Virus record (IMG/VR): IMGVR_UViG_3300044825_001742
Location: 1-20,529 of that record
DNA: 20,529 nucleotides
Strand: one strand, 5' to 3'
Origin: a virus
Numbering within the stretch: position 1 is the first letter of the stretch; every line of letters starts with the position of its first letter. The position numbers and the translations under genes were made by a program. This document shows positions 1-4,225 of this stretch, piece after piece. The notes under the pieces are model-generated. The model was not told the origin of the DNA. It made no database searches and was given only the letters and a program-made list of their open reading frames with translations.

Positions 1-521
1 TCGTACTGAGCCATCCGCGCCTTCAGCAACTGCCGACGCTCTGGTGTCAGATCACGAACCTTGGGCTTGCCAAGGCTGACAGCAACCTCATTCCAAACCT
101 CAACAACATCCTTTGGATTGAACGTGTCTGAAACATCGGTTTCGGACATACACTCGCTAGAGTGTATCTCTTTCTCTCTCTTTCCCTCTGTCTCTCTCTC
201 TGGGGTAGCAACTTGCAAGCATGGCGCTAGCATCGTGCTAGCATCAAGAAAAAAGCCACTGTTTATCAAAGGTTTAATGCCATCTTCAATCTCGCTGACT
301 GACATTCTCAATCGAAATGACAACTCATCAAGAGAGGCATCAAATGACCCATCCTTGCTTTCACTTGCTAGCAACCACATCAATGGCGCTAGCGCCTTGC
401 TAGCAACTGGTAGCGCCATGAAAGCACGATCATTAAGCAAGTCACGATGCAGCTTAATCCATGGCGGGCAGCGGTTGTTGTAGTGCTGAAACGCACTCCA
501 GTTTTTAGGGACAAGCTTCAT
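1..521 (-). CDS. Phage replication initiator / replisome organizer-like protein (3' end cut by window edge)
   Basis: The frame is open from an ATG at 521 to the window edge, giving about 173 residues without a stop. The N-terminal ~90 residues (MKLVPKNWSAF..., then WIKLHRDLLNDRAFMALP) resemble the winged-helix domain of phage replication proteins of the lambda O / replisome-organizer type. Next comes a charged, low-complexity linker (PERETEGKREKEI). A C-terminal segment, VWNEVAVSLGKPKVRDLTPE followed by RRQLLKARM, is typical of the conserved end of such proteins. It probably binds the phage origin and recruits the helicase machinery. Its ATG overlaps the stop of the upstream zinc-ribbon gene (ATGA), so the two are translationally coupled. 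The gene contains two clusters of 11-bp repeats that may be the origin. The family assignment is from motif recognition only; the role is inference. Confidence 0.72.
   Translation of the reverse strand, partial: MKLVPKNWSAFQHYNNRCPPWIKLHRDLLNDRAFMALPVASKALAPLMWLLASESKDGSFDASLDELSFRLRMSVSEIEDGIKPLINSGFFLDASTMLAPCLQVATPERETEGKREKEIHSSECMSETDVSDTFNPKDVVEVWNEVAVSLGKPKVRDLTPERRQLLKARMAQY
167..201. other. Polypyrimidine tract next to the iterons
   Basis: Thirty-four of 35 bases on the plus strand are C or T (one G at 190), immediately beside the first iteron. On the coding strand this encodes the charged PERETEGKREKEI linker. Such a strand-asymmetric tract could help unwinding or only reflect the low-complexity protein linker. 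Confidence 0.4.
204..247. repeat. Four tandem 11-bp iterons inside the replication gene
   Basis: Four consecutive 11-bp units start at 204, 215, 226 and 237: ggtagcaactt, gcaagcatggc, gctagcatcgt and gctagcatcaa. The first nine bases fit the consensus GCTAGCATC, and the fourth to seventh (AGCA) are identical in all four. Because 11 is not a multiple of three, the repetition does not come from a repeated peptide. The period of about one helical turn suits cooperative protein binding on one DNA face. This fits origin iterons within an initiator gene, as in lambda O. The origin role is inference. Confidence 0.62.
367..414. repeat. Second iteron cluster inside the replication gene
   Basis: Perfect GCTAGC cores start at 367, 388 and 399, with a GGTAGC variant at 409. 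The spacings are 21, 11 and 10 bp, so the copies stay close to helical phase. Two of them extend to GCTAGCAAC and the other two to GCTAGCGCC and GGTAGCGCC. The core is the same as in the cluster at 204-247, about 120 bp away. This is probably part of the same origin or binding array. Confidence 0.55.
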
Positions 522-1734: not shown

Positions 1735-2301
1735 ATGACGGTGTACAAAAAGCTTAATGACGCGCGCACAATCCTGCACGCACAGCCCCTCAGGAAGACG
1801 GGCAAGAACACGTTCGCCGGGTACGAGTACTTTGAGCTGAGCGACTTCCTCATCCCCTCCCTGCACGCCTTTGAGGCCGTCGGCCTGTGCGCCGTGATCT
1901 CGTTCACCAGCGACGTGGCGACCATGAAGATCGTGGACGTGGAGACGGGCGAGACTATTGAGATCACATCCCCCATGGGCTCGGCTGCATTGAAGGGCTG
2001 CCATGAGGTGCAGAACATCGGCGCAGTGGAAACCTACCAGCGTCGCTATCTCTGGACGACCGCCATGGAGATCGTCGAGCGGGATGCTCTGGAAGCCACG
2101 ACCGGCCGCGATGCGCCTGAGAAGAGGTCATCTGGCAAGGCGACCGATGCTCAAATGGCGGAATTGATGACGCTGATTGAGATCACCAACAGCGACGTTA
2201 AGCGTCTTTGTGAGCATCTGAAGATTAAGAGCTTGCAAGACCTAACCGAAGATAGCGCCAATAAGGCAATTGCTGCCGTTAAGACGAAGGTGAAGAAATG
2301 A
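1735..2301 (+). CDS. erf: ERF-family single-strand annealing protein
   Basis: A 188-residue protein with the hallmark core of the ERF recombinase family (P22 Erf type). It begins MTVYKKLNDARTILHAQPLR, then KTGKNTFAGYEYFELSDFL (22-39), ITSPMGSAALKGCHEVQNIG (77-96) and AVETYQRRYLWTTAMEIVER (97-116). The C-terminal 70 residues are a charged tail with helical segments. ERF proteins form rings that anneal complementary single strands during phage recombination and genome circularisation. It is the first gene after the rightward promoter and its stop overlaps the next start (ATGA), an exonuclease. That pairing is typical of two-component phage recombination systems. Confidence 0.92.
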   Translation: MTVYKKLNDARTILHAQPLRKTGKNTFAGYEYFELSDFLIPSLHAFEAVGLCAVISFTSDVATMKIVDVETGETIEITSPMGSAALKGCHEVQNIGAVETYQRRYLWTTAMEIVERDALEATTGRDAPEKRSSGKATDAQMAELMTLIEITNSDVKRLCEHLKIKSLQDLTEDSANKAIAAVKTKVKK

Positions 2302-2906
2302 TTGAGCAGAACACACCCGAATGGCATCAGGCCCGCTGTGGTTCGCTTGGGGCTTCGGCAGTCCACGACGCGCTGGCTCGCACTAAGGCGGGCTGGGGTG
2401 CCGGCCGCGCTAACGCAAAGGCAAAGCTTGTTCTTGAGCGGCTTACCAACACGCCTCAGGACAGCTTCACTAATGCCGCCATGCAGTGGGGGCATGATCA
2501 AGAAGACAACGCGGCCAAAGCATACGCCTTCCGCACGGATAACCCGGTTGAAGTATGCGGCATCTACAAGCACCCGTTCATTGATGGCACGCACGCCTCT
2601 CCTGACCGCCTTGTAGGCGATGACGGGCTGGTGGAGATCAAGTGCCCCAATAGCGCCACGCACCTTGATACGTTGCTGAGCAAGAAGGTGCCGGCGAAAT
2701 ACATCACCCAGATGCAGTGGCAGATGGCTGTAACTGGCCGCAAATGGTGCGATTTTGTATCATTTGATCCGCGTTTCCCTGAGGAGCATCAGTTGTTCAT
2801 CCAGCGCGTTGAGCGTGATGACCAGCTTATCCAAGAGCTGGAGCAGATGGTTGCTGAATTTTTGGCCGAAGTTGATGCCGATCTGAAGGCCCTCAGTGAA
2901 GGTTAA
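2298..2906 (+). CDS. YqaJ / lambda-type 5'-3' exonuclease
   Basis: A 202-residue protein of the YqaJ viral recombinase family (PD-(D/E)XK fold, related to lambda Exo). It begins with TPEWHQARCGSLGASAVHDAL. The WGHDQED segment carries E69. SPD supplies D103, VEIKCP gives E113 and K115, and the QMQWQMAVTG helix (138-147) is the usual post-catalytic motif. The catalytic set therefore looks complete. It would resect double-stranded ends so that the ERF protein encoded just upstream can anneal the exposed strands. The two genes overlap by 4 bp, and the next gene starts inside its 3' end. Confidence 0.92.
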   Translation: MIEQNTPEWHQARCGSLGASAVHDALARTKAGWGAGRANAKAKLVLERLTNTPQDSFTNAAMQWGHDQEDNAAKAYAFRTDNPVEVCGIYKHPFIDGTHASPDRLVGDDGLVEIKCPNSATHLDTLLSKKVPAKYITQMQWQMAVTGRKWCDFVSFDPRFPEEHQLFIQRVERDDQLIQELEQMVAEFLAEVDADLKALSEG

Positions 2907-3249
2907 TCACAAGCGGATCAAGCCCAAGGCTGGGGCTGCTCCGACCGCCGAGGAGAAGCGGTTCATGGGCTGGGTGGCGTCATGCGCCTGCCTCGCCTGT
3001 GGCCGCCGCCCGGTGACGTTGCACCATGTAACCAGCGATGGGTTTAAACGAATTGCCAGAAGCCACAAGAGGATCGTCCCGCTCTGCGCCATGCACCACC
3101 TGATCCAGCATGGTCCTACCATCTCGGTAGAGGCCTTGGGTCACAAGGGGTTCAAAGAGCGCTGGGGGGTCGATCTGCTGGCCGAGGCAGAAGCTCTATG
3201 GGAGCGGTGGATTGAAGAGCGTAACTCTAAAGACCAAGGCGCAGCGTGA
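2896..3249 (+). CDS. Ref-like HNH / DUF968-type recombination nuclease
   Basis: A 117-residue protein with a metal-binding core: C30, C32 and C35 (CACLACGRRP), H43-H44 (LHHV), C64 (VPLCAMHH) with H67-H68, H72 and GHKGFKERWGVDL. This is the pattern of the Ref (phage P1 recombination enhancement function) / DUF968 HNH group. P1 Ref is a RecA-dependent nuclease that cuts in D-loops. A GTG at 2896 is the likely start: it overlaps the exonuclease gene by 11 bp and keeps the basic N-terminus. The next ATG, at 2965, would remove that basic segment. The role in recombination is supported by its neighbours (ERF, exonuclease, NinB). Confidence 0.78.
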   Translation: MKVNHKRIKPKAGAAPTAEEKRFMGWVASCACLACGRRPVTLHHVTSDGFKRIARSHKRIVPLCAMHHLIQHGPTISVEALGHKGFKERWGVDLLAEAEALWERWIEERNSKDQGAA

Positions 3250-3619
3250 CTATGCCAAGCAGCTCATTGACGAAGCCCCGGACAACTACGTGGTCTCGTT
3301 CAAAGAGCGCACGCGCAGTCTCGATCAGAATGCGCTCATGTGGGCCCTGCTCGAAGACATCGCACAGGCAAAGCCCGACGGCCGGGATATGGACAAGGAT
3401 ACATGGAAAGCTGTGTTCCTGTTCGAGATCGGCATCAAGTCACGCTTCCAGCCAAGCCTTAGCGGGGAGGGGATGGTTGTCATCCCGCCCAAGTCATCAA
3501 CCCTATCTGTCAGCCAATTCTCCGAGCTGATCGAGTGTATCTATGCGTATGGAGCAAACCACGGCATCGTGTGGCGAGACTACACGCACAGCCTTATCGA
3601 AGAAAGAAACAATAAATGA
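3212..3619 (+). CDS. ninB: NinB / Orf recombination mediator
   Basis: A 135-residue NinB-family protein (lambda Orf). Key parts are VTLKTKAQRDYAKQLIDEAP, YVVSFKERTRSLDQNALMWA (27-46), a DTWKAVFLFEIG segment (63-74), PSLSGEGMVVIPPKSSTLSV (81-100) and a helix ending in AYGANHGIVW. Lambda Orf binds single-stranded DNA and SSB and helps load RecA, replacing RecFOR. The start is TTG at 3212, within the end of the Ref-like gene (38 bp overlap). It gives MKSVTLK, matching the usual N-terminus, and has a GGAGCGG ribosome binding site. It works beside the SSB encoded downstream. Confidence 0.9.
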   Translation: MKSVTLKTKAQRDYAKQLIDEAPDNYVVSFKERTRSLDQNALMWALLEDIAQAKPDGRDMDKDTWKAVFLFEIGIKSRFQPSLSGEGMVVIPPKSSTLSVSQFSELIECIYAYGANHGIVWRDYTHSLIEERNNK

Positions 3620-3852
3620 GCGAACAAGTTAGCGCGGACGAACTCCGCCTGTTGATTGAGCGGATCGAGACACTGGAGGCCGAAAAGCAGGGCATCGCGG
3701 ACGATGTGAAGGACACGTACAGCGAAGCCAAGTCACGCGGTTACGACACCAAGATCATGCGCCAGATCGTGCGCCTGCGGAAAATGGAAGCCCATGCCCG
3801 TCAGGAAGCCGACCTAATCCTTGAAACCTATCGCGCAGCATTGGGGATCTGA
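3616..3852 (+). CDS. GapR / DUF2312-like DNA-binding protein
   Basis: A 78-residue helical protein with the DUF2312 pattern: LIERIETLEAEKQGIADDVK, DTYSEAKSRGYDTKIMRQIV, RLRKMEAHARQEADLILETY and a terminal RAALGI. Caulobacter GapR of this family binds overtwisted, AT-rich DNA ahead of replication and transcription machinery. The family is mainly alphaproteobacterial, so this gene is the best host clue in the window. Full length is kept and no key part is missing. Its ATG overlaps the NinB stop (ATGA), and SSB starts 1 bp after its own stop. A role in phage DNA topology or replication is inference. Confidence 0.85.
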   Translation: MSEQVSADELRLLIERIETLEAEKQGIADDVKDTYSEAKSRGYDTKIMRQIVRLRKMEAHARQEADLILETYRAALGI

Positions 3853-3853
3853 C

Positions 3854-4225
3854 ATGCAGCTAATCACAATAAGTGGCAACGTCGGCAAAGACGGCACCAT
3901 CAAGGACGTGCGCGGCCGGGACGTACTTTCGTTCTCTGTGGGCGTGAAGCAGGGCTCTGGGGACAGCACCAGCACTAACTGGTACCGCGTGCAGGTCTGG
4001 GGCAAACTTGCTCAAATTTTGCTCCCGAAGGCCGTTAAGGGCGCGGGCGTGATTGCACTCGGCGAATTGAAGATCGGCGAGTATAATGGCAAACCAACCT
4101 TTGATGTTGACGCAACAAAGGTAGAGTTTACCGGCGCACCAAAGGCAAGGGAATATGAAGCTCCCAAACCAGCATATCAGGAGCCAAGCTTCGGGGAAGA
4201 CTTGAACGACGACGTACCGTTTTAA
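3854..4225 (+). CDS. ssb: Single-stranded DNA-binding protein
   Basis: A 123-residue SSB. The OB-fold runs from MQLITISGNVGKDGTIKDVR through VLSFSVGVKQG and TNWYRVQVWGKLA (41-53) to GVIALGELKIGEYNGKPTFD. A Pro-rich linker follows, and the canonical acidic tip DLNDDVPF recruits partners. The ATG at 3854 is chosen over an in-frame upstream start at 3821 because it opens directly on the OB-fold and sits immediately after the GapR-like stop. It is shorter than host SSB (about 150-180 residues), as is common for phages. It would coat ssDNA made by the exonuclease and act with NinB. Confidence 0.93.
   Translation: MQLITISGNVGKDGTIKDVRGRDVLSFSVGVKQGSGDSTSTNWYRVQVWGKLAQILLPKAVKGAGVIALGELKIGEYNGKPTFDVDATKVEFTGAPKAREYEAPKPAYQEPSFGEDLNDDVPF

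Follow-up and report, generated by a model that had tools for sequence, protein, structure and literature searches.

A putative iteron-type replication origin inside the initiator gene of a phage genome fragment and its relatives

The replication initiator gene at one end of a phage genome fragment contained an array of 11-bp repeats, which we interpreted as initiator-binding iterons of a phage replication origin located inside the initiator's own gene. The probability of this reading, drawn from comparative sequence analysis, was put at roughly 0.85; initiator binding, unwinding, helicase loading and origin activity are predicted on the same basis. The fragment, hereafter the window, was the entire 20,529-bp IMG/VR record. 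The array resembled the general kind of initiator-gene-embedded iteron origins, in that helically phased repeats lay in coding sequence and were constrained as DNA. An origin of this kind had been proposed in a first-pass annotation of the window, and conservation at synonymous sites, concentration of the repeats in the gene and their co-change with the DNA-binding domain all argued for it. The features of the region were as follows.

3–521, minus strand: replication initiator gene, 173 aa seen, its 3' end cut by the contig end; an N-terminal winged-helix DNA-binding domain (about residues 1–105) is followed by a charged linker and the start of a C-terminal domain.
3–167, minus strand: start of the C-terminal domain, with 91% identity to the relative L031.
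148–167, no strand assigned: inverted repeat ATACACTC-GCTA-GAGTGTAT, perfect over 8 bp with a 4-nt loop.
165–203, minus strand: purine tract, CCAGAGAGAGAGACAGAGGG... on the coding strand, abutting cluster 2 and encoding a Glu/Thr/Arg/Lys linker.
204–247, minus strand: iteron cluster 2, four direct 11-bp units at gene positions 313, 302, 291 and 280; 204 (GGTAGC) and 215 (GCAAGC) are degenerate, 226 and 237 (GCTAGC) perfect.
367–414, minus strand: iteron cluster 1, units at gene positions 150, 129, 118 and 108; 367, 388 and 399 (GCTAGC) are perfect, 409 (GGTAGC) degenerate.

All eight copies annotated in the first pass were found at the positions claimed for them. When the whole 20,529 bp was counted, GCTAGC occurred five times and every copy fell within 226–404, which bore out the claim that the motif is absent elsewhere in the window. 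The one-mismatch copies at 204, 215 and 409 and the perfect units formed two groups on an 11-bp ladder, and all copies with one mismatch or fewer between 200 and 415 were on the array. The excess of copies that had been claimed stood only as clustering. The total of five was ordinary (mean of 6.6 in shuffles of the window), and the raw count was dropped as evidence; the clustering alone was significant, with P <1e-6 for five random sites inside 173 bp. The phased pattern GCTAGCA-N4-5-GCTAGC gave three matches, both strands being counted, versus none in 100 shuffles.

The initiator matched the profile of PHROG 26426, "replication protein", over residues 1–130, which include the N-terminal domain (E 1.2e-34), and DnaD-like phage replisome organisers (PHROG 26426 and 186; phiPLPE gp04) are homologues of the window protein. 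A winged helix was predicted with pLDDT >90 over residues 31–90. In the predicted structure, cluster 1 encoded residues 36–52, including the long helix 39–52 of the DNA-binding domain, and cluster 2 encoded residues 94–106, right behind the last strand. The top fold neighbours listed were N-domains of RepA-type initiators (4pql, 5kbj, 4pta and 4pt7; Z 6.7–6.3), with DnaD (2vn2) lower at Z 4.9; all of these Z scores are below 8, and hence below the decisive level. Pfam gave no match to the RepA_N domain, and DnaD_N was matched weakly by 6 of 20 relatives (best E 0.0035) and not by the window protein. The C-terminal part had a weak match to the O-like PHROG 345 (E 0.0022). Comparison of the family profile with the sequences of solved structures gave nothing credible (E 0.085), and Foldseek against the PDB gave nothing significant (best E 0.94).

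Relatives were taken from close matches in IMG/VR, a profile scan (552 confirmed, 80 kept), 37 loci in bacterial genomes and phage records, among them Cylindrospermopsis phage Cr-LKS3 and Iodobacter phage phiPLPE. In a set of 101 genes made up of viral contigs, two phages and the window, GCTAGC was present at gene position 118 in 92 genes and at position 291 in 91; positions 280, 150 and 129 carried it in 63, 43 and 39 genes, respectively. Some lineages were without a unit, yet had extra units at gene position 187, 198, 220 or 313. Loci of Bradyrhizobium, Variovorax, Limnoglobus, Zavarzinella and other bacterial genomes had a similar array, and these loci are presumably prophages, spread over several phyla. 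At the Oxalobacteraceae loci, an ORF of about 100 aa encoded the DNA-binding domain on its own, with iterons continuing beyond the end of this ORF; the TAG stop codon of L132 sat within a GCTAGC. Among these loci (L117–L135), the next ORF in L118 and L126 began with iteron-coded residues, and in L118 this ORF was an SF2 helicase, the N-terminus of which the array helps to encode. Close relatives of the L050 group had the diverged cores GCAAGC and GATAGC. In L050, L058, L065, L069, L079, L080 and L087 the cores had drifted jointly without a change of position (GCAAGC, GATAGC, GCTATC) and may be a sub-dialect. No such array was seen in L148.

Five distant relatives carried GATATC, spaced 11 bp apart, at the place corresponding to the iterons, and a profile scan started from these GATATC relatives yielded 80 loci, nearly all of which had GATATC at 11-bp spacing and a similar tract. 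After removal of near-copies, the winged-helix domain contained FQHY in all 73 GCTAGC rows and FQHF in all 42 GATATC rows; ten rows were left unclassed, having diverged cores, mixed cores, units beyond the ORF or no array that could be seen. On a domain tree built without the iteron-coded columns, two changes of dialect sufficed, the tree having few columns and weak support. The C-terminal domains crossed the dialects, with 92 GCTAGC genes matching 64 GATATC genes. The clearest pair was L077 and L175, in which the C-terminal part was 98% identical and the DNA-binding domain 50%, with GCTAGC iterons in one and GATATC iterons in the other. Their nucleotide identity was 73–100% at 120–270 bp upstream, fell to about 30–70% across the domain and, from gene position 361 on, was about 90% or more; this profile indicated that domain and iterons were exchanged as one cassette, and as judged from the alignment one boundary of the swap is at or just past the purine tract. 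In no classified case was a domain type joined to the dialect of its counterpart, a co-inheritance that is partly simple linkage because domain and iterons physically overlap. The FQHY/FQHF split and the L077/L175 swap thus answered in the affirmative the question, raised in the first pass, of whether the repeats change with the DNA-binding domain.

In L031, a window-like C-terminal domain (91% identical) was fused to an unrelated DUF1376-type N-domain. This relative was without GCTAGC and had CTAACCA repeats of its own at the corresponding place, for which reason it was dropped as a clean negative; its sequence suggests an origin of another type and not a loss. The CTAACCA-type array, at 2940–2995 of L031 where the window has iterons, is a possible third iteron type. 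Similarity between the window and L031 started exactly at the hairpin 148–167, which lay directly after the purine tract (-7.4 kcal/mol, z -5.9). A role of this hairpin as a recombination boundary or a single-strand signal is possible. An Rfam scan of the window gave no match.

The polypyrimidine tract that had been reported beside the array was present; it reads as purine on the coding strand and lay at a fixed distance from the array, as part of the same element and not a mere neighbour. Its typical form in relatives was CAGAGACAGAGACAGAG, with GAGACA repeats, and its start (CAGAG) was most often 40 nt after the first perfect cluster 2 unit in both dialects. The purine fraction was 0.82–0.87 in the first 40 nt versus about 0.45–0.67 around it. 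Across diverged relatives, codons of the tract that encoded the same amino acid were 98% identical. In the GCTAGC class, the Glu codons GAG and GAA were used 553:16 in the tract versus 245:342 upstream, and Thr was encoded by ACA in the tract at 259 to 6. An A+T-rich region was not found beside the iterons, the AT content being 0.50–0.57 in the tract and similar in the flanks. We consider the tract a putative unwinding or loading element.

Whole-genome counts, which had been proposed as a check, placed the motif mainly in the initiator gene of complete genomes. All five GCTAGC of the 47.4-kb phiPLPE genome were inside the initiator gene (12.4 expected), as were 6 of the 10 in Cr-LKS3, and every GATATC of PBR31, ct2t2046 and DC33 was inside the gene; of the seven complete phage genomes, four (phiPLPE, PBR31, ct2t2046 and DC33) therefore had the motif in this gene only. 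A GC-skew plot, likewise proposed, agreed in part: the distance between the gene and the detrended minimum was 0.5–2.3 kb in five of the seven genomes and about 8 kb in the other two, and the skew is only suggestive because transcription diverges next to the gene. Downstream of the initiator, Cr-LKS3 had a DnaB-type helicase gene and phiPLPE and phiV208 a gene for a DnaC/IstB-like ATPase; other relatives had genes for a CHC2 primase-like protein or a weakly matching P-like loader. In the window, a 105-aa ORF on the minus strand (773–1090) lay close upstream of the initiator and matched the C-terminal, DNA-binding domain of DnaA below the threshold (E 0.0011), and a divergent recombination block on the plus strand (1735–4225) encoded an ERF annealing protein, a YqaJ exonuclease, a Ref-like HNH nuclease and an SSB. 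Limnohabitans phage DC33 (PQ492659.1, L233) is classed in the Inoviridae, although its genome is 39 kb in size, contains very long ORFs and is laid out like that of a tailed phage; the label is probably a taxonomy error.

Depending on the frame, GCTAGC is read as Ala-Ser or as Leu-Ala, and these residues are conserved, so that the array might be a mere coding constraint on an Ala-Ser or Leu-Ala peptide pattern. Shuffling of synonymous codons in the window gene, by which the encoded protein is left unchanged, gave a mean of 1.04 GCTAGC versus the five observed (P 0.0004), and the excess had P <0.01 in 11 of 12 representatives, window gene included, with 0.042 in L027. Ala40-Ser41 was GCT-AGC and Leu98 was CTA in all 12 of these diverged representatives, in which several codons were used for other residues; codon identity given the same residue was 0.46 outside the elements, 0.74 in motif codons and 0.98 in the purine tract. 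Both the shuffles and the invariant codons thus spoke against the peptide pattern, as did the use of two reading frames by the units, the appearance of new units at new codons, and the replacement of GCTAGC by GATATC in the sister clade. Moreover, a peptide constraint cannot explain iterons that run past the ORF end in Oxalobacteraceae or the TAG inside a GCTAGC of L132. The codon shuffles, frame changes and synonymous-site analysis ruled out the coding-repeat reading, to which we accord a negligible chance; the first-pass view that this is no peptide repeat was upheld, and the repeats were kept, not lost, at synonymous sites in relatives.

More serious, albeit still unlikely, is the explanation that the initiator-bound sites are an operator within the gene, acting in autorepression or as a roadblock to transcription, and that the true origin is at another site. 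Binding of the initiator to its own gene would fit all of the sequence evidence, and clusters 1 and 2 are separable; however, up to four to six phased direct repeats, a conserved purine tract at a fixed distance, adjoining helicase or loader genes and skew minima nearby are origin-like. Another type of cis site, for partition, recombination, packaging or as a restriction or methylation target, appeared quite improbable. Both cores are 6-bp palindromes (GCTAGC being the NheI site and GATATC the EcoRV site), and the hairpin and a recombination boundary are close by, but the array is particular to the initiator gene and its DNA-binding domain, is phased at 11 bp, and has a motif that is absent elsewhere in several genomes.

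The proposed iteron origin was compared with known systems. In lambda and lambdoid phages, the iterons of ori-lambda are located within the initiator gene O and the helicase-loader gene is downstream (PMC7466680, PMC5043065), and one strand of the lambda origin region is nearly all purines (PMC5043065). The window region was like ori-lambda in having iterons in the initiator gene, an adjacent purine-asymmetric region and, in relatives, a loader gene downstream. Whereas ori-lambda has inverted repeats as its iterons, placed midway in O, those of the window were 11-bp direct units with a 6–8-bp palindromic core; the earlier statement that the repeat differs from the lambda sequence was upheld. 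Unlike in ori-lambda, they were partly within the codons of the DNA-binding domain itself, and the tract was GAGACA-rich instead of A+T-rich. The oriL of SPP1 consists of direct repeats in gene 38 that are bound by its own origin-binding protein (PMC6316719). The likeness lies in repeats in the own gene and in a helicase loader and helicase that are separate, and the difference in the AT-rich DUE and second origin oriR of SPP1; gp38 was likened by description. The rep gene of the RepA_N plasmid pSK41 has four Rep boxes at its centre, which are bound by the N-terminal winged helix, and modular exchange of the N-domain is known among RepA_N plasmids, as in pPR9 (PMC5703833). The pSK41 origin encodes a linker, whereas the window iterons encode part of the fold too. 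Plasmid Rep proteins bind iteron DNA and single-stranded DNA at once (PMC4081077), which by analogy may serve as a model for the use of a repeated tract.

Our best reading is that the predicted origin would work in the manner of ori-lambda, from which it differs in its iterons and in lacking an A+T-rich element. The 11-bp unit, about one helical turn with the core (T)GCTAGC(A), would align initiators on one face of the DNA, and the N-terminal winged helix would bind units in the very DNA that encodes it. Cluster 2 and the adjoining purine tract would make up the core element, and cluster 1, within the coding region of the domain, would be accessory and more variable. Side-by-side binding on phased units with cluster 2 as the core is strongly supported by the sequence comparisons. 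Initiators so arranged may cause distortion and opening at or beside the strand-asymmetric tract, and the C-terminal domain may recruit the helicase or its loader, which relatives encode in an adjoining gene; for opening and recruitment we infer from the lambda, SPP1 and RepA_N systems.

It is already known that an origin can lie inside an initiator gene. The comparative paper on phiPLPE described neither iterons nor a replication origin, and we found no GCTAGC iterons, and no origin for phiPLPE or Cr-LKS3, in the open-access literature. What appears undescribed in the literature searched is the family, the domain-linked dialect cassette, the overlap of iterons with codons of the domain and the codon-frozen GAGACA tract. 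It is conceivable, and we propose it tentatively, that these genes represent a widespread undescribed origin family, in which the DNA-binding domain is partly encoded by the very sites that it reads, GCTAGC and GATATC dialects switch with that domain as a cassette, and a GAGACA tract replaces the A+T-rich unwinding element. For hundreds of uncultured phages, as well as for prophages in phyla that include Pseudomonadota and Planctomycetota, the finding provides a predicted origin whose coordinates are exact. A specificity swap is already at hand in nature, through the two dialects and their recombinant pairs, for asking which residues read GCTAGC versus GATATC, and the non-A+T-rich, codon-frozen tract makes it directly testable what is unwound and where the helicase loads.
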